A stretch of 64,000 bases of DNA from Gemmatimonadota bacterium (lineage in GTDB: Bacteria > Gemmatimonadota > Gemmatimonadetes > Gemmatimonadales > Gemmatimonadaceae): contig JAQBPX010000023.1 in NCBI GenBank assembly GCA_028287305.1, forward strand, positions 1 to 64,000. The letters are read 5' to 3'. The position numbers and the translations under genes were made by a program. Below are positions 1 through 23,181 of this stretch, one piece after another. A model generated the notes under the pieces. That model was given only the letters and a program-made list of their open reading frames with translations, had not been told where the DNA came from and searched no databases. Positions within the stretch are counted from its first letter, which is position 1. Each line of letters begins with the position of its first letter.

Positions 1-755
1 ACCGCCTCGTTGCGCAGCAGCTGCTCGTGATCCCGCTTGCCATGCGGCGTGATGGTATCCTGCACCGCGGGGCGTGAGCGCGCGAGCAGCTCCGTGAGCG
101 GGATGAGGGCGCCGCGATCTTCCTGCGCGGCGATCAGCGCATCCTCGGCGCCCGCCGGATCGCTGAGCAGTCCGGTGAGCGCGTCGCGATACCACGCCGG
201 CAGCCGGTCGAGCAGCTCCGACTCGCGCACGCCCTGCACCTGCCCCACGCTGCGCGACGCAATCCAGTGCGACACGAGCACGCGCGACAGCTGCACGCCG
301 GCCGGCCACAGCTCGTCCACGTCGTCGCGCGAATACTTCTGCAGCCGCGCCGAGAGGTTCCGCACGTCGGAGGGGCGCTGGTAGGTGATCACCGCCATTC
401 CACTCGCGCGCATCGCGGCGGAATCGGCGGCGCCCACTGCGTTCGCCTCATCGGTGAGCACCAGTGCGACGCTCGGCGCCCGCTGGCCGAACAGCCGCTC
501 GTAGCCGCGCACCGCGAACTTGAGCTGGTCCCACCCGATGTTCACCGCGCTCGCGCTCGCCGCATACACCTCGAGCCCATTCTCGCGGTGCACGTGCACC
601 GTCCTGCCGCCGAGCAGGGTCGTCGAGTCACCGACCGCGTTGTCGACGGGCACGGCCTGGTACCAGTACTTCCTGAAGACACCGCAGCCGCTGCCCGGCA
701 GCGTGAGCGCGCCGAGCGCCCCGATGCCGAGCATCACCCTCCAGCGCCGCTGCAT
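1..755 (-). CDS. Putative secreted or lipoprotein of unknown function, C-terminus cut by window edge
   Basis: The frame is open from an ATG at 755 to the window edge, about 251 codons with no stop, and codon use is GC-rich like its neighbours. The N-terminus MQRRWRVMLGIGALGALTL is a signal peptide ending in GSGC, a weak lipobox, so a periplasmic or outer-membrane lipoprotein is likely. The mature part contains a VALVLTDEAN strand and later HWIASR and LPAWYRDAL segments. These recall Gemmatimonadota peptidase-MA-like proteins, but the expected HExxH is not visible, so I assign no function. It starts 8 bp after the aconitase stop codon on the same strand and is probably co-transcribed with it. 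Confidence 0.6.
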   Translation of the reverse strand, partial: MQRRWRVMLGIGALGALTLPGSGCGVFRKYWYQAVPVDNAVGDSTTLLGGRTVHVHRENGLEVYAASASAVNIGWDQLKFAVRGYERLFGQRAPSVALVLTDEANAVGAADSAAMRASGMAVITYQRPSDVRNLSARLQKYSRDDVDELWPAGVQLSRVLVSHWIASRSVGQVQGVRESELLDRLPAWYRDALTGLLSDPAGAEDALIAAQEDRGALIPLTELLARSRPAVQDTITPHGKRDHEQLLRNEA

Positions 756-763
756 GCGCACGC

Positions 764-3529
764 TCAGTTGCGTCCGCCCACCAGCGAGCGCAGGACGTAC
801 GGCAGGATCCCGCCATGGCGGTAGTACTGCATCTCCTCCGGCGTGTCGATGCGCAGCAGCACCGGGAACTGCTTGTCATCTGCCTTCACGGTGAGCGTCG
901 CGCGCGCCTTGAGCGAGTCGTCGAGCCCGAGAATCTCGTACGTCTCGAAGCCCGTGAGTCCCAGCGACTGGCGCGTGGCCCCATTCGCCAGCTCGAGTGG
1001 CAGCACGCCCATCCCCACCAGGTTCGAGCGATGGATGCGCTCGAAGCTCTCGGCGATCACGGCCTTCACGCCGAGCAGGATGGTGCCCTTCGCCGCCCAG
1101 TCGCGGCTCGATCCCGTGCCGTATTCCTTCCCCGCCACGATCACCAGGGGCGTCTTCGCCTCGGCGTACCGCATGGCGACGTCGTAGATGAACTCCGCCT
1201 TGCCGCCCTGCTCGGTGGTGGTCCAGCCACCCTCGGTGCCCGGCACCATCTCGTTCTTGAGGCGGATGTTCGCGAAGGTGCCGCGCATCATCACCTCGTG
1301 ATTGCCGCGACGCGCACCGTACGAGTTGAAGTCCTTCTTCTCCACGCCCTGCGCGATCAGCCACTTGCCCGCGGGGCTGGCCGCCGGGATGTTGCCCGCC
1401 GGCGATATGTGGTCGGTGGTGATCGAGTCGCCGAGCATCGCGAGCGCCTTCGCGCCCGCAATGGGCTTGATGCCGGGCGCCTGCATGGTCATGCCGTCGA
1501 AGTACGGCGGGTTCTTCACGTAGGTCGAGTCGGACTGCCACGCGTACGTCTCCGCCTTCGGCACCTCGAGCCCCTGCCAGTGCTCGTCGCCCTTGAAGAC
1601 GTCGGAGTACTGGTGCACGAAGAAGTCCTTCTTCACGCTGCTCAGGATCTCGTCGGCCACGTCCTTCGCGCTCGGCCAGATCTCCTTGAGGAACACGGGA
1701 CCGTCGCTGCCGATGCCGATCGGCTCGCGCGTGAGGTCGAGGTCCATTCGGCCGGCCAGCGCATACGCGACGACGAGCGGCGGCGAGGCGAGGTAGTTGT
1801 AGCGCGTGAGCGGATTGACGCGACCCTCGAAGTTGCGGTTGCCCGAGAGCACGCTCGCCACGAACAGCTTGCCCGTCTCGATCGCGCTCGCGATCTCGTC
1901 GGGCAGCGGCCCCGAGTTGCCGATGCACGTGGTGCAGCCGTAACCCACGAGGTTGAAGCCGAGCTTGTCGAGGTACTCGGTGACGCCGGCGGCGTTGAAG
2001 TAATCGGTGACCACCTTGGAGCCCGGCGCGAGCGAGGTCTTGACCCACGGCTTCACCGAGAGGCCCTTCTTCACCGCGTTGCGCGCAAGCAGCCCCGCGG
2101 CGAGCATCACCCCGGGGTTCGAGGTGTTCGTGCAGCTCGTGATCGCGGCGATCACCACCGAACCGTTCTTCAGCGTGAACTCCTTGCCGTTGTAGCTGCA
2201 GTGCACGCCGTCCTCGTGCTGCTGCTGCGCGCCGCCCTCACCATCGTTGCGGATGAGCGCCTTCGAGAGCTCGGGCTCCGCGCTGATCGAAGTCGCCTTG
2301 TTCGCGACCGCGGCGCCGGCGAGCGTGCCGAGCTTCTCGAGGTCGGTGGCGAGCGCCTCCTTGTACATCTGCGCGGCATTGCTGAGCGGCACGCGATCCT
2401 GCGGCCGTCGCGGACCTGCCATGCTCGGCTCCACCGTCGAGAGGTCCAGCTCGATGGTGTCGGTGAACTCGGGGTCGGGCGTCTCGTCGGTGCGGAAGAG
2501 ACCCTGCGCCTTCGTGTAGGCCTCGACCAGTGCGACGTGCTCGTCGCTGCGACCGCTGAGCCGCAGGTACTTGAGCGTTTCGCTGTCCACGGGGAAGAAG
2601 CCCATCGTCGCGCCGTACTCCGGCGCCATGTTCGCGATGGTCGCGCGGTCGGCCAGCGACAGCCCGCTGAGTCCGGGTCCGTAGAACTCCACGAACTTTC
2701 CAACGACCTTCTTCTTGCGCAGCATCTCGGTCACGGTGAGCACGAGGTCCGTGGCCGTGGTGCCGGGAGGAAGCTTGCCGTGCAGCCTGAAGCCCACCAC
2801 TTCGGGAATCAGCATGGAGACCGGCTGGCCGAGCATGGCCGCTTCCGCCTCGATGCCGCCCACGCCCCAGCCGAGGACGCCGAGTCCATTGATCATGGTC
2901 GTGTGCGAGTCCGTGCCCACGAGCGAGTCGCAGTACGTCTCGCCGGTCTCCTCGTTCACGAACACCGTCTTGCCCAGGTACTCGAGGTTGACCTGGTGGC
3001 AGATGCCGGTGCCCGGCGGGACCACGCGGAAGTTCTTGAACGCGTCCTGTCCCCAGCGGAGGAAGACGTAGCGCTCCACGTTGCGCTCGAACTCCAGCTC
3101 GGTGTTGAGCAGGAAGGCGGCGTCGGTGCCGTACTCGTCCACCTGCACGCTGTGGTCGATGACGAGGTCCACCGGCTGCAGCGGGTTGATGCGCTGCGGG
3201 TCGCCGCCCAGTCGCACGAGCGCGTCGCGCATGGCGGCGAGGTCCACGACGGCGGGGACGCCGGTGAAGTCCTGCAGGAGCACGCGGGCGGTGCGGAAGG
3301 CGATCTCCTTCTCGACCTTTCCCTTCACGTCCCAGCTCGCCATCGCCTCGATGTCGGCGCGCTTGACGAAGGCGTCGTCCTCGTTCCGGAGGAGGTTCTC
3401 GAGCAGGATCTTGAGTGAGAAGGGGAGGCGGGCGGCATGTCCGCCGGCGGCCTCCACGCGATACATGACGTACTGCTTGCCCGCGACGTCGAGTGTCGCG
3501 CGGCTGCCGAACGAGTTCTTGCTTGTCAT
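764..3529 (-). CDS. acnA: Aconitate hydratase A
   Basis: A 921-residue protein of the usual AcnA/IRP length, converting citrate to isocitrate through cis-aconitate in the cytosolic TCA cycle with a [4Fe-4S] cluster. Cluster ligands are visible as SCTNTSNP and [10 protein letters not shown]. The N-terminal part has the [11 protein letters not shown] and [21 protein letters not shown] motifs, and the C-terminal swivel domain has [14 protein letters not shown] and [10 protein letters not shown]. Start ATG 3529 gives MTSKNSFGS, the normal N-terminus. The frame stays open far upstream, but that part is antisense to the M20 gene and is not real. The M20 gene starts divergently 124 bp away. Confidence 0.97.
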
Positions 3530-3652: not shown

Positions 3653-4696
3653 ATGACCGAACTTTCTGCCACGACCGCCCTGACTGCCCGCCTCATGGAG
3701 ATAGACTCCACGAGCGGCGCCGAGGGCGACGTCATCGACTTCATGCAGCGCTACCTGGATGAGCAGGGGTGGTGCACCACGCGCATCCCCGTCTCCGAGG
3801 GTCGCGACGACGTGTTCGCCAGCGCCGGGGAGCCTCGCGACGTGCGCGTCACGCTCTCCACGCACCTGGACACCGTTCCCCCGTACATCGCGCCACGCGT
3901 GGCGGGCGACCGCCTGCTGGGGCGCGGTGCCTGCGACGCCAAGGGAATCGCCGCGGCGATGGTGATGGCCGGCGAGCGCCTGCGTGCCTCGGGCGTGCCG
4001 GTGGGGCTCCTGTTCGTGGTGGGCGAGGAAACCGCGCACGACGGGGCGCACGCCGCCAACGCGTGGATGGAAGCGATGGGCTCGACGAATCGCGTGATCA
4101 TCAACGGCGAGCCGACCGAGAGCACGCTCGCACTCGGCACCAAGGGCGCCAAGCGCTACACGGTGCGCGTGCAAGGCGAGGCGGCGCACTCGGCGTATCC
4201 ACAGCTCGGACGCTCGGCGACGCTCGAGCTGGCGCGGCTGCTCGTGGACCTCGAGCGGGTCACGCTGCCGACCGACGCACTGCTCGGCGACACCACCATC
4301 AACATCGGCTTCCTCAGCGGGGGCGTGGCCGACAACGTGGTCGCGCCGTGGGCAGAGGCGAGGATCATGGCGCGGCTGGTCACGTCGCAGGAAGAGCTGC
4401 AGCCGGTGCTGGCGAAGTGGGTGAAGGGACGCGCGTCGATCAACAGCGACGGGATCATGGTGCCCCCGGTGAAGCTCGGCGTGGTGGAGGGATTCGCGAC
4501 GAGCGTGGCCGCGTTCGCCACCGACATCCCGGCGCTGGGCGCATGGGGCACGCCGTACCTGTATGGCCCCGGCTCGATCCACGTGGCGCACCGGGATGAT
4601 GAGTTCGTGGTGATCGCGGAGCTGGAGTCGGCGGTGGATGCGTATGAGAAGCTCGCGATCCTGGCGCTGGAGCAGGACAAAAGCAAAAGGCATTAG
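3653..4696 (+). CDS. M20-family deacylase (ArgE/DapE/LysK-like)
   Basis: A 347-residue cytosolic metallo-hydrolase. All five M20 metal ligands are recognisable: THLDT (His), GACDAKG (bridging Asp), VVGEET (catalytic Glu and metal Glu), NGEPTES (acidic ligand) and the late SIHVAH (His). The mid-protein [20 protein letters not shown] is the start of the dimerisation domain. In this family the substrates are N-acetylornithine, succinyl-diaminopimelate or LysW-linked lysine/ornithine. The short length and the NGEPTES form fit the LysK/ArgE-like side, but no biosynthetic neighbours are present to decide. I chose ATG 3653 ([10 protein letters not shown]); an in-frame ATG at 3626 would add nine residues. 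Confidence 0.85.
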
Positions 4697-4766
4697 CCGC
4701 GGACGACCGCGGACGACGCGGACAATGACTTGGTGGTCGTCCGCGGTAGTCCGCGGTCGTCCGCGG
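4697..4766. terminator. Imperfect inverted repeat between convergent genes
   Basis: Immediately after the M20 stop, CCGCGGACGACCGCGGAC (4697-4714) is the exact reverse complement of 4749-4766. Both sides also contain shorter GTCCGCGG/CCGCGGAC copies, so several hairpins are possible. There is no T-run. It sits between the convergent M20 and patatin genes and probably acts as a bidirectional terminator or a repeat element. Confidence 0.55.
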
Positions 4767-4771
4767 CAAAA

Positions 4772-4804
<33 letters not shown>

Positions 4805-4809
4805 TTTCC

Positions 4810-5940
4810 CTACGCCGCACCCGGCTCTATCCCATCGATCGCACCCACCGTCCCCACCGCGGGCCGCGGCGCGAGCAGGTCCAGCTTCGTGGTCGCGATC
4901 GCCTCGGTGGGGCAGTGGTTCACGAAGTCACCGTCGGCCGCGCTCCACTCCGCCACGCGAATGCGCGCGAACGCCTTGCCGGTCGAGTCCATCCCCATGT
5001 AGCCCGGCGCCAGCGCCACGCAGAGTCCGCAGCCCACGCAGCGCTCGCGAATCACGTCGAGCTGCACGCGCTTCCGCGGAAAGATCCCGCCCGGCTGGCG
5101 CGCGTAGAGGTCGAAGTTCTCGAGCGCCTTCTGCGCCGCGCGGTAGCCCTCGAGGATGAAGCGCTCCGTGGAGCTGAAGCTGAACCAGTCCGCGCCCACC
5201 TTGGGGCGGATCAGCAGCATCGGCGGTCCCGACCACGCCGCCAGTGGATACTGCTGCAGCGCGTGCATCATGGTGGTGGCGGCGCGCATGTAGATCGACG
5301 CGAAGCCATTGTCCACGCAATCACGGTCCGGTGCCAGGTCCGAGCTGCCGACGTCGATCGCGATGACCACGTCCATTCCCGGCGCCGCCGCATTCACGGG
5401 CAGGTTGTCGGTGACGCCGCCGTCCACGCAGATGCGGCCGCCCACCTTGGCCGGCGGAAAGAATCCCGGGAGGGCGCACGACGCGTACACTGCCTCGCGC
5501 ACCTGCACCCCGCGCAGGCCGGGAAGTCCCCACACCACCTGGGTGCCGTTCACCAGGTCCACGGTGTTCACGAGCAGCGGCGTCTTGAGGTCGGCGAAGG
5601 TCCCCTCGGCCACCGAGTCCTCGATCAGCGTGCGGAGGGGCTCCTCCATGTAGATCGCGCGCGCCTTCATCCGCTCGACGAGCATCGAGATGTGGTTCAC
5701 GCGAAAGAGGTCGCGTCGCCTCAGTCGCTCGGCGCGCTTCGCCAGCTCGTCGGCGGTCAGGCCGCCGACGGTGGCAGCGGCGATCAGCGCCCCGATGCTG
5801 GTGCCGGCGTAGAGCGCGGGCTGGATTCCCGCCTCCTCGAGCGCGCGCAGCACGCCGATGTGCGCGAAGCCCTTGATCCCGCCCCCACCGAGGACGAGAC
5901 CCACGCGCAGGCTTGATCGAGCGTTCTTGATGCTGTGCAT
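4810..5940 (-). CDS. Patatin-like phospholipase fused to a C-terminal ferredoxin domain
   Basis: A 376-residue protein. Residues 13-290 are a patatin domain: oxyanion loop GGGGIKG (18-24), nucleophile elbow GTSIG with Ser48, and the dyad Asp in VDGGVTDN. Such domains hydrolyse acyl esters of lipids. Residues 295-350 carry Cys301-x2-Cys304-x2-Cys307 and a distant Cys343-Pro, the ligand pattern of a single-cluster [4Fe-4S] ferredoxin. The fusion has no internal start or stop and codon use is continuous, so it is not an obvious assembly join. It has no signal peptide. The redox domain could gate lipid hydrolysis or receive electrons at the membrane, which is inference. Convergent with the M20 gene. 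Confidence 0.88.
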
Positions 5941-21259: not shown

Positions 21260-22807
21260 CTACTTCGCAATCACCGTGGCCTTCCCCGCAGCGTTCGATG
21301 TCTCCGTCAGCCCCCGCCCTGCCCGGATGATCGCAAACGTCGCGCGGCGCAGGCGTCCATCGGGCGCGCGCAGTCCCATCGCCGAGCCATAGTCGCCGGC
21401 TTCCTGCACGATCAGTCCCTTGATCGCCGGCCGGCTGGTGCCCCACGCGAGCGCCGACCAGATCAGCAGCTCCTGGCTCGCTTCGCCATGCGCCAGCGGA
21501 TATCCGCCCACCCCGAAGATCCAGTGGTCCTTGGTCGGCGGCGTGGCGCGCATCCAGCGATCGGCGGCGCGCGTGTACGCATCCACCGCGCGCGCGCCGG
21601 TGCGCTCCGGGTAGAGCGAGAATCCGGGGATGTCCACCGGCGATCCCGGCGCAGCCGCCCACGCGTAGAGCGCGCTGTCGCGCGTGTCATACGCGCTCGC
21701 GGCCAGCCCGATGCGCGTCGCAGGGCGCAGGCGCTTCGAGAGCAGCGCCGCCTCCGTGACGAACTCCTCCCAGTCGCGCACGGGCAGCCGACCGAGCGCG
21801 CGCGCGCCCACGCCGTACGGATCCTGCGCGGGCACGAGGATGTCGGGACGCAGGCGGCGCAGTATGCGATCGATGGCGGCGAGGCGCTGCTTCGTGTCCA
21901 GTCGCCCGCGCCCCAGCTGCGGAATGGTCACGCCGCGGTAGCCGAGCGTCACGATCAGCGTGGTGCTGTCGCGTCGCAGCTCGTCGAGCGCGCGCGCGAC
22001 CGAATCCAGCGCCGCGGGGGCGACGTCGGGCACCACCACCACGCTCACCACGTCGAGCTTGAGCGTGTCGGCCAGGTCCAGGTCGCTCTGCAGCGAAGTG
22101 ACCGGCGGCGCGGAGCGCATGTCGGGAAAGATCTTGAGCCCGATCTCGAAGTCGCCCTCGGGGCGCTCCTGCAGGCGATCGCCTTCATGCCGCGCGTAGC
22201 TGGCCAGCGTGCGCTCCGCCAGGGGAAGCTCGGCGGCGATCAGCGCGCTCCACCCGAAGGCAATCGCGGCGAGCCCCGCGCGGAAGCTCGCCGTGATCCG
22301 CCGCAGCGCGGGAAATGCCGGCGAGATCATGGGCGGCAGGAAGTACAGCGGCGAGTGCAGCGCGGCGCTCGTGGCCCCGAGCATCAGCGCGTCGCTCACC
22401 GCGGCCGTGAACACGAGCAGCGGCTGCGGCGGCGTGACGCCATGCGCCGAGAGGTACTTCACGATGCCCGCGATGGCGATCACGATGTCGTACAGCATGA
22501 TCGCGTATCCCCAGAAGGGATTCACGAGCTGCCGGCTCGACGCGTAGATCGCCTGCGCCGCGAAGAGCACGAGCACCGCGGGCCACATCCAGTCCACCAG
22601 CGCCACAGTGCGGCCGGTGACGAGCGTGCTGCTCGCGAGGCCGATGAGCGTCGCGGGAACCAGCAGCAGCGCGGCCAGCCCGCTCAGCGCCGCGAAGATG
22701 CGCGGTGACTGCGGATTGTTCGCGATGCGGCCGCCGAGCACCACGCTCCAGCCGAGGATGATGAGCGTGATCACGAGGTGCAGCGGCGCCAGCCACTCGC
22801 GAATCAA
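21260..22807 (-). CDS. Multi-TM protein with C-terminal TIM-barrel-like domain, unknown
   Basis: A 515-residue protein. Residues 1-230 have about seven hydrophobic helices (LAPLHLVITLIILGWSVVLG onward). Residues 260-510 look like a glycoside-hydrolase-type barrel: repeated strand-helix units with VVSVVVVPDVAP, TLIVTLGYRG, LRPDILVPAQDPYG, IGLAASAYDT, IFGVGGYPLAHG and KGLIVQEAGDYG. No catalytic pair can be assigned. TTG 22807 is chosen because it overlaps the SpeD-like stop as TTGA and gives a membrane N-terminus; the longer frame upstream is a shadow. Third gene of a coupled trio. Confidence 0.7.
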   Translation of the reverse strand: MIREWLAPLHLVITLIILGWSVVLGGRIANNPQSPRIFAALSGLAALLLVPATLIGLASSTLVTGRTVALVDWMWPAVLVLFAAQAIYASSRQLVNPFWGYAIMLYDIVIAIAGIVKYLSAHGVTPPQPLLVFTAAVSDALMLGATSAALHSPLYFLPPMISPAFPALRRITASFRAGLAAIAFGWSALIAAELPLAERTLASYARHEGDRLQERPEGDFEIGLKIFPDMRSAPPVTSLQSDLDLADTLKLDVVSVVVVPDVAPAALDSVARALDELRRDSTTLIVTLGYRGVTIPQLGRGRLDTKQRLAAIDRILRRLRPDILVPAQDPYGVGARALGRLPVRDWEEFVTEAALLSKRLRPATRIGLAASAYDTRDSALYAWAAAPGSPVDIPGFSLYPERTGARAVDAYTRAADRWMRATPPTKDHWIFGVGGYPLAHGEASQELLIWSALAWGTSRPAIKGLIVQEAGDYGSAMGLRAPDGRLRRATFAIIRAGRGLTETSNAAGKATVIAK

Positions 22808-23181
22808 TGCGAGATCCCCCGGTCGGTCGTGGCGCCTGCCCTGTGACGCACGTCCTGGTGCACCGCCGACGCCGGAATGCGCCGCGTGAACACCTCCAGC
22901 ACGCGCGACCAGTCCTTCGTCGCCGGCGCGAGGAGGTCCAGGAACAGCATCCTGCGCGCTGGGTGCGCATGCAGGATCAGGTGGCACTCCTCGAGCATCA
23001 GCACGGCCGAGACGCCGCCGTCGGGGCGCACGTGCACGATCGGCAGCCCCGATGTCTGCAGGCCGGCCGCACCCGCCGCGGCGATCAGCAGCCCGCTCAA
23101 CATCGTGGCATCCCTCAGCGACGCGTCGGGTACGTCGACGAAATCCGCTACGAGATGCACGAGCCCGGCGGGCTCCGTCAC
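22804..23181 (-). CDS. SpeD-like protein with Cys at the autocleavage site
   Basis: A 125-residue protein of the size and pattern of prokaryotic S-adenosylmethionine decarboxylase proenzyme: GLVHLVADFVDVPDA at the N-terminus, then VRPDGGVSAVLMLEECHLIL aligning with the SpeD GVSGVVV-ESHLSIH segment. The Ser that becomes the pyruvoyl group in SpeD is Cys66 here, and the usual Cys of the TCG motif is missing (LDLLAPA). So either a Cys-derived pyruvoyl forms, the enzyme acts on another substrate, or it is a non-catalytic homologue. GTG 23181 overlaps the M28 stop (GTGA). No spermidine synthase is adjacent. Confidence 0.75.
   Translation of the reverse strand: MTEPAGLVHLVADFVDVPDASLRDATMLSGLLIAAAGAAGLQTSGLPIVHVRPDGGVSAVLMLEECHLILHAHPARRMLFLDLLAPATKDWSRVLEVFTRRIPASAVHQDVRHRAGATTDRGISH

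Follow-up and report, generated by a model that had tools for sequence, protein, structure and literature searches.

A probable SpeD-fold pseudoenzyme kept as a stand-alone protein across a bacterial order

The DNA analysed here (the window) is a stretch of 64,000 nucleotides from a Gemmatimonadota bacterium, and it encodes a small SpeD-like protein that is probably a vertically inherited, stand-alone pseudoenzyme of SpeD fold that may act by binding. Homology and the predicted fold point to a SpeD-type, pyruvoyl-dependent decarboxylase as its ancestor. An alignment of homologues shows that the lineage gave up the Ser used for self-cleavage, the catalytic Cys and, just ahead of the cleavage site, a Glu, and that most members also lost the aromatic residue at position 70; position 63 then came to hold Gly or Cys, and occasionally Ala (numbering of Thermotoga maritima SpeD). 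The loss of Ser, Cys and Glu leads us to infer strongly that pyruvoyl chemistry has disappeared from the clade, such that its members would neither form a pyruvoyl group nor decarboxylate AdoMet.

The gene occupies positions 22804..23181 of the minus strand and encodes 125 amino acids between a GTG start and a TGA stop. The assignment draws on the translation, a match to PF02675, an AF2 structure model, dN/dS values and membership in a clade of relatives. Both of the segments that had drawn attention to the protein, EECHLILH and LDLLAPA, are present in the translated frame. Its start overlaps the stop of an upstream M28 peptidase gene by 4 nt (GTGA, 23181..23178, minus strand), and its stop overlaps the start of the next gene by another 4 nt (TTGA, 22807..22804, minus strand). 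Among relatives sharing at least 70% identity, the median dN/dS is 0.18, with a minimum of 0.03 (255 pairs). Because the frame overlaps both of its neighbours and dN/dS is low among its relatives, this is a real, selectively maintained gene and not a chance reading frame.

By sequence and by predicted fold, the protein is a member of the AdoMet_dc/SpeD family. The profile search proposed by the first-pass annotation yields 52.7 bits for PF02675 (AdoMet_dc), above the curated cut-off of 25, and 40.8 bits for the NCBIfam equivalog TIGR03330, below its cut-off of 75.65. An AF2 model made with 53 homologues as input (pLDDT 93.6, pTM 0.84) agrees with the SpeD fold suggested in that annotation, since the five top PDB fold matches are all bacterial SpeD proteins, including 1tmi, 1vr7, 1tlu and 2iii, with TM scores of 0.79–0.88. 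The best of these is T. maritima SpeD 1tmi, which is the non-processing S63A mutant (E 1.6e-8, TM 0.81/0.86), and the first match outside SpeD is human spermine synthase (3c6k).

Alignment with T. maritima SpeD bears out both substitutions read earlier from the sequence. Specifically, Cys66 (codon TGC, 22984..22986, minus strand) occupies the place of the pyruvoyl-forming Ser63, and Pro86 (codon CCG, 22924..22926, minus strand) that of the catalytic Cys83. The adjacent His67 (22981..22983, minus strand) corresponds to His64 and is invariant in all 95 aligned clade members, and His71 (22969..22971, minus strand) corresponds to His68 and is retained in 89 of them. The processing residues Ser55 and His68 thus have equivalents in the window copy, namely Ser58 and His71. 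F49, W70 and E72 of T. maritima SpeD, which we take to be substrate-site residues, are replaced by Val, His and Ala.

When 295 genomes of the class were scanned with PF02675, the matches fell into two populations, one of high-scoring SpeD sequences and another, weaker one to which the window protein belongs. Within the order, a profile made from this weaker group has matches in 117 of 288 genomes (about four in ten of those sampled), the reading frames are unbroken in nearly all copies, and in the loci examined the carriers keep the gene in the same chromosomal block. Aligned members of the weaker group, which come from two families of the order (f1 and f2), never have Ser at position 63: this site holds Gly in 58, Cys in 35 and Ala in 2 of the 95 clade members. 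Hence the Ser-bearing homologues that would have spoken against the earlier reading did not appear in the clade, and Cys66 is not fixed, giving way to Gly or Ala in 60 of the 95. Cys63 occurs often in part of family f1, and all sampled f2 copies carry Gly.

All 35 other SpeD sequences of the set, T. maritima included, have Ser63, and Glu62, His64, His68 and Cys83 are likewise present in these non-clade sequences. Within the clade, Cys83 is lost in 94 members and kept in 1, Glu62 is retained in only 4 and Ser55 in 29, and Asp79 and Pro71 are each found in 91. Asp24, Pro47 and His67 (window numbering) are invariant, and Arg114 is common to the clade (85 of 95) and to active SpeD (33 of 34). One genome (G012) carries a second SpeD-like match (4545–5168 of locus L079, minus strand) that lies outside the block and aligns to the profile in two separate pieces, and may be a copy that was rearranged or has degraded. 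With the window protein as query, the genome_contigs, viral_contigs and phages collections returned no match, and a literature search found no paper on such a Ser-less SpeD clade in Gemmatimonad genomes.

A tree of 130 rows and 113 columns, with columns 63 and 83 masked, places the Ser-less sequences on one side of a single branch (SH-aLRT 95). The inner forks are poorly resolved, given 113 columns for 130 rows, and the tree requires 7 changes among the four residue states. The clade adjoins a Ser-bearing group from family f10 (SH-aLRT 90), in which the genes for SpeD and spermidine synthase (PF01564) are neighbours; for this reason, the closest Ser-bearing group looks like normal SpeD. Given the single branch of the clade and the spermidine synthase gene that accompanies SpeD in its closest Ser-bearing group, the sequences look like the outcome of one ancient loss of pyruvoyl chemistry. 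At the f10 loci (L093–L098), the spermidine synthase gene is on the opposite strand, and an OsmC-like gene is usually present as well.

In the window, the run of genes opens with a 154-amino-acid cyclic-nucleotide-binding domain protein (PF00027; 24755..25219, minus strand). Upstream of the SpeD-like gene is the M28-family peptidase ORF (PF04389; 23178..24722, minus strand), the true start of which likely lies further in, before the signal peptide. Coupled to the SpeD-like stop is a membrane protein with a glycoside-hydrolase-type TIM barrel (21260..22807, minus strand), described from an AF2 model and a PDB fold search and lacking any Pfam match. The predicted barrel forms its C-terminal part and resembles GH113, GH2 and PslG. 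The block shared by families f1 and f2 starts with genes for a DsbA-like protein, a small conserved protein and a CDP-alcohol phosphatidyltransferase, continues often with the 154-amino-acid protein and sometimes with M28, and then reaches the SpeD-like gene; in f1, the gene for the membrane TIM-barrel protein often comes next. Genes for an M16 peptidase and for a TPR protein commonly follow in the block.

What stays constant is position; each of the neighbours is missing from some loci. The translational tie to a secreted peptidase, from which a role had been read, is real in the window genome, where the two frames overlap, but it does not extend to a conserved link: at most loci M28 is not matched upstream, and there are genomes that have the cyclic-nucleotide-binding and M28 genes but no SpeD-like gene, so we rejected the peptidase as a functional clue. 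The cyclic-nucleotide-binding protein was rejected as an obligate partner, with 72 genomes carrying both genes, 45 only the SpeD-like gene, 64 only the other and 107 neither; co-occurrence is weak (Fisher p 7e-5, n = 288 genomes, uncorrected for relatedness). This protein is found in 136 of the 288 genomes, mostly at 56–84% identity, an unusual degree of conservation for a sensor domain on its own. The membrane TIM-barrel protein also failed as a partner, as it is widespread in family f1 whether or not the SpeD-like gene is present, with many f1 genomes having it but not the latter, and was not found in f2. Because no neighbour is strictly retained with the SpeD-like gene, all that the neighbourhood suggests is a setting at the envelope or membrane.

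The SpeD-like gene is absent from many genomes of the order that keep the surrounding block, and in the tree the branch leading to the window copy is long. Both facts would suit a decaying relic that has no function and is heading for loss. We nevertheless consider such a relic unlikely, as the selective constraint among relatives (with the lowest dN/dS values in close pairs), the three invariant residues, the nearly always intact frames and the presence of the gene in two families all argue against it.

The conserved residues raise the matter of whether the protein is an enzyme still, with a non-pyruvoyl chemistry built on the His pair and Asp82, for example at a metal site. His67 is indeed invariant, and His71 and Asp82 (window numbering) are retained in 94–96% of the clade. 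However, these are ancestral SpeD residues, with His64 and His68 present in 34 of 34 active SpeD copies, and their retention may therefore be structural. The neighbourhood, moreover, hints at no substrate, and we regard this form of catalysis as very improbable.

The polyamine genes of the window genome (4.37 Mb, 100% complete) bear on a further possibility, in which the protein, itself dead, would pair as a subunit with an active SpeD and switch the latter on. The Trypanosoma brucei prozyme is a precedent for such an activator (PMC5201418), and a dead and a Ser-bearing SpeD occur together in at least 15 genomes of the order. In most carriers, however, the dead copy is alone, and a profile search of the window genome found no second PF02675 protein. 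With no other SpeD present, activation of this kind fails for the window genome, and we judge it highly unlikely as an account of the protein.

The earlier observation that no spermidine synthase lies near the gene extends to the entire window genome, which has no match to PF17284 and none above cut-off for nspC. PF01564 has a single match there, to a large membrane-fused protein. This sole spermidine-synthase-like protein is 959 amino acids long and is encoded at 562–3441 of locus L092 (minus strand). The window genome is accordingly one without canonical SpeE. Of 14 control genomes, PF02675 matches 8 and PF17284 matches those same 8 and no others; PF02675 without PF17284 is therefore unusual, and SpeD–SpeE pairing is usable as a check on SpeD annotations. 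Relatives of SpeD in genomes that lack a spermidine synthase include ornithine and arginine decarboxylases, which derive their pyruvoyl group from Ser (PMC10407285). A caution for annotation pipelines is that PF02675 taken alone would imply AdoMet decarboxylase where very probably none is encoded.

The window copy itself resembles a near-intact processing site, as it is the only one of the 95 clade members to combine Glu62 and His68 with Ser or Thr at position 55; Ser58, Glu65 and His71 stand together with Cys66 in this copy alone. Cys could on this basis replace Ser functionally, with self-cleavage at Glu65–Cys66 giving a Cys-derived pyruvoyl group of the type found in D-proline and glycine reductases (PMC9908766), and Cys is, after all, the residue at position 63 in 35 homologues. 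Orthologues in the same chromosomal block carry Gly or Ala, however, and of the 35 Cys copies, 1 (the window copy) retains Glu62, 17 have Ser55, 6 have Arg or Gln in place of His68 and 34 lack Cys83. Gly and Ala cannot yield a pyruvoyl group, which rules out a Cys-derived pyruvoyl as the general explanation for the clade and makes it very doubtful that Cys serves as a working substitute for Ser, as the first-pass annotation had thought conceivable. We know of no report of a Cys-derived pyruvoyl or other Cys-based cofactor chemistry on the SpeD fold, and a literature search for a Ser-to-Cys AdoMetDC mutant found no paper. We read the processing set retained in the window copy as coincidence or slow decay that leaves slight room for Cys-based cleavage, and it is scarcely credible on these sequences that the protein still self-cleaves and carries a Cys-derived pyruvoyl or another Cys-based cofactor. 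The cysteine, we strongly infer, marks a retired enzyme kept for another job rather than a new type of cofactor.

The reading we prefer, a SpeD-fold pseudoenzyme that binds, agrees with the probable non-decarboxylase role first proposed for this protein. The pyruvoyl Ser and the second Cys are lost, and the genome has no canonical spermidine synthase. Conservation indicates that selection still acts on the fold, on a helix rich in small residues and on a residual set comprising His67, His71, Pro74, Asp82 and Arg114, which, if the SpeD fold is a guide, would lie together in the old active-site region. The product may stay uncleaved, probably as a dimer, and bind either a small molecule or another protein as its partner, and it might have a regulatory or scaffolding role at an envelope-related locus. 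Such a binding or scaffolding role is suggested by exclusion and by analogy with prozyme and the N-terminal domain of spermine synthase.

Among known systems, the window protein recalls the class 1b AdoMet decarboxylase SpeD of T. maritima (1TLU/1TMI), with which it shares fold, length, the GVS segment, the two His of the EsHxxxH segment and the equivalents of P71, D79 and R112; unlike that enzyme, it has no pyruvoyl Ser, no Cys83, no equivalents of F49, W70 and E72 and no SpeE partner. It also resembles the SpeD-derived ornithine and arginine decarboxylases in being a SpeD relative in a genome without spermidine synthase, although those enzymes form their cofactor from the Ser that the clade lacks (PMC10407285). 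It differs from Cys-derived pyruvoyl proteins of the PrdA type in that its Cys is not conserved among orthologues. The degraded, non-cleaving C-terminal SpeD domain of a Victivallis vadensis fusion has likewise lost active-site residues, but it is fused to an active SpeD domain (PMC10407285), whereas the window protein stands alone. Trypanosomatid prozyme has the AdoMetDC fold, lacks the pyruvoyl residue and is catalytically dead, as the window protein is presumed to be, yet prozyme requires an active paralogue (PMC5201418) and the window genome has none. The N-terminal domain of human spermine synthase (3C6K), found through its structural similarity in the fold search, is associated with dimerization (PMC11203672) and is part of a larger enzyme, whereas the window protein is a separate frame with no aminopropyltransferase fusion. 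If this account is correct, the SpeD fold has been kept across a bacterial order in a protein that stands alone and does not process itself, in genomes that usually have no active SpeD for it to regulate, and the fold's binding or structural role would thereby be separated from pyruvoyl chemistry, in a bacterial parallel to prozyme and the spermine synthase N-terminal domain.
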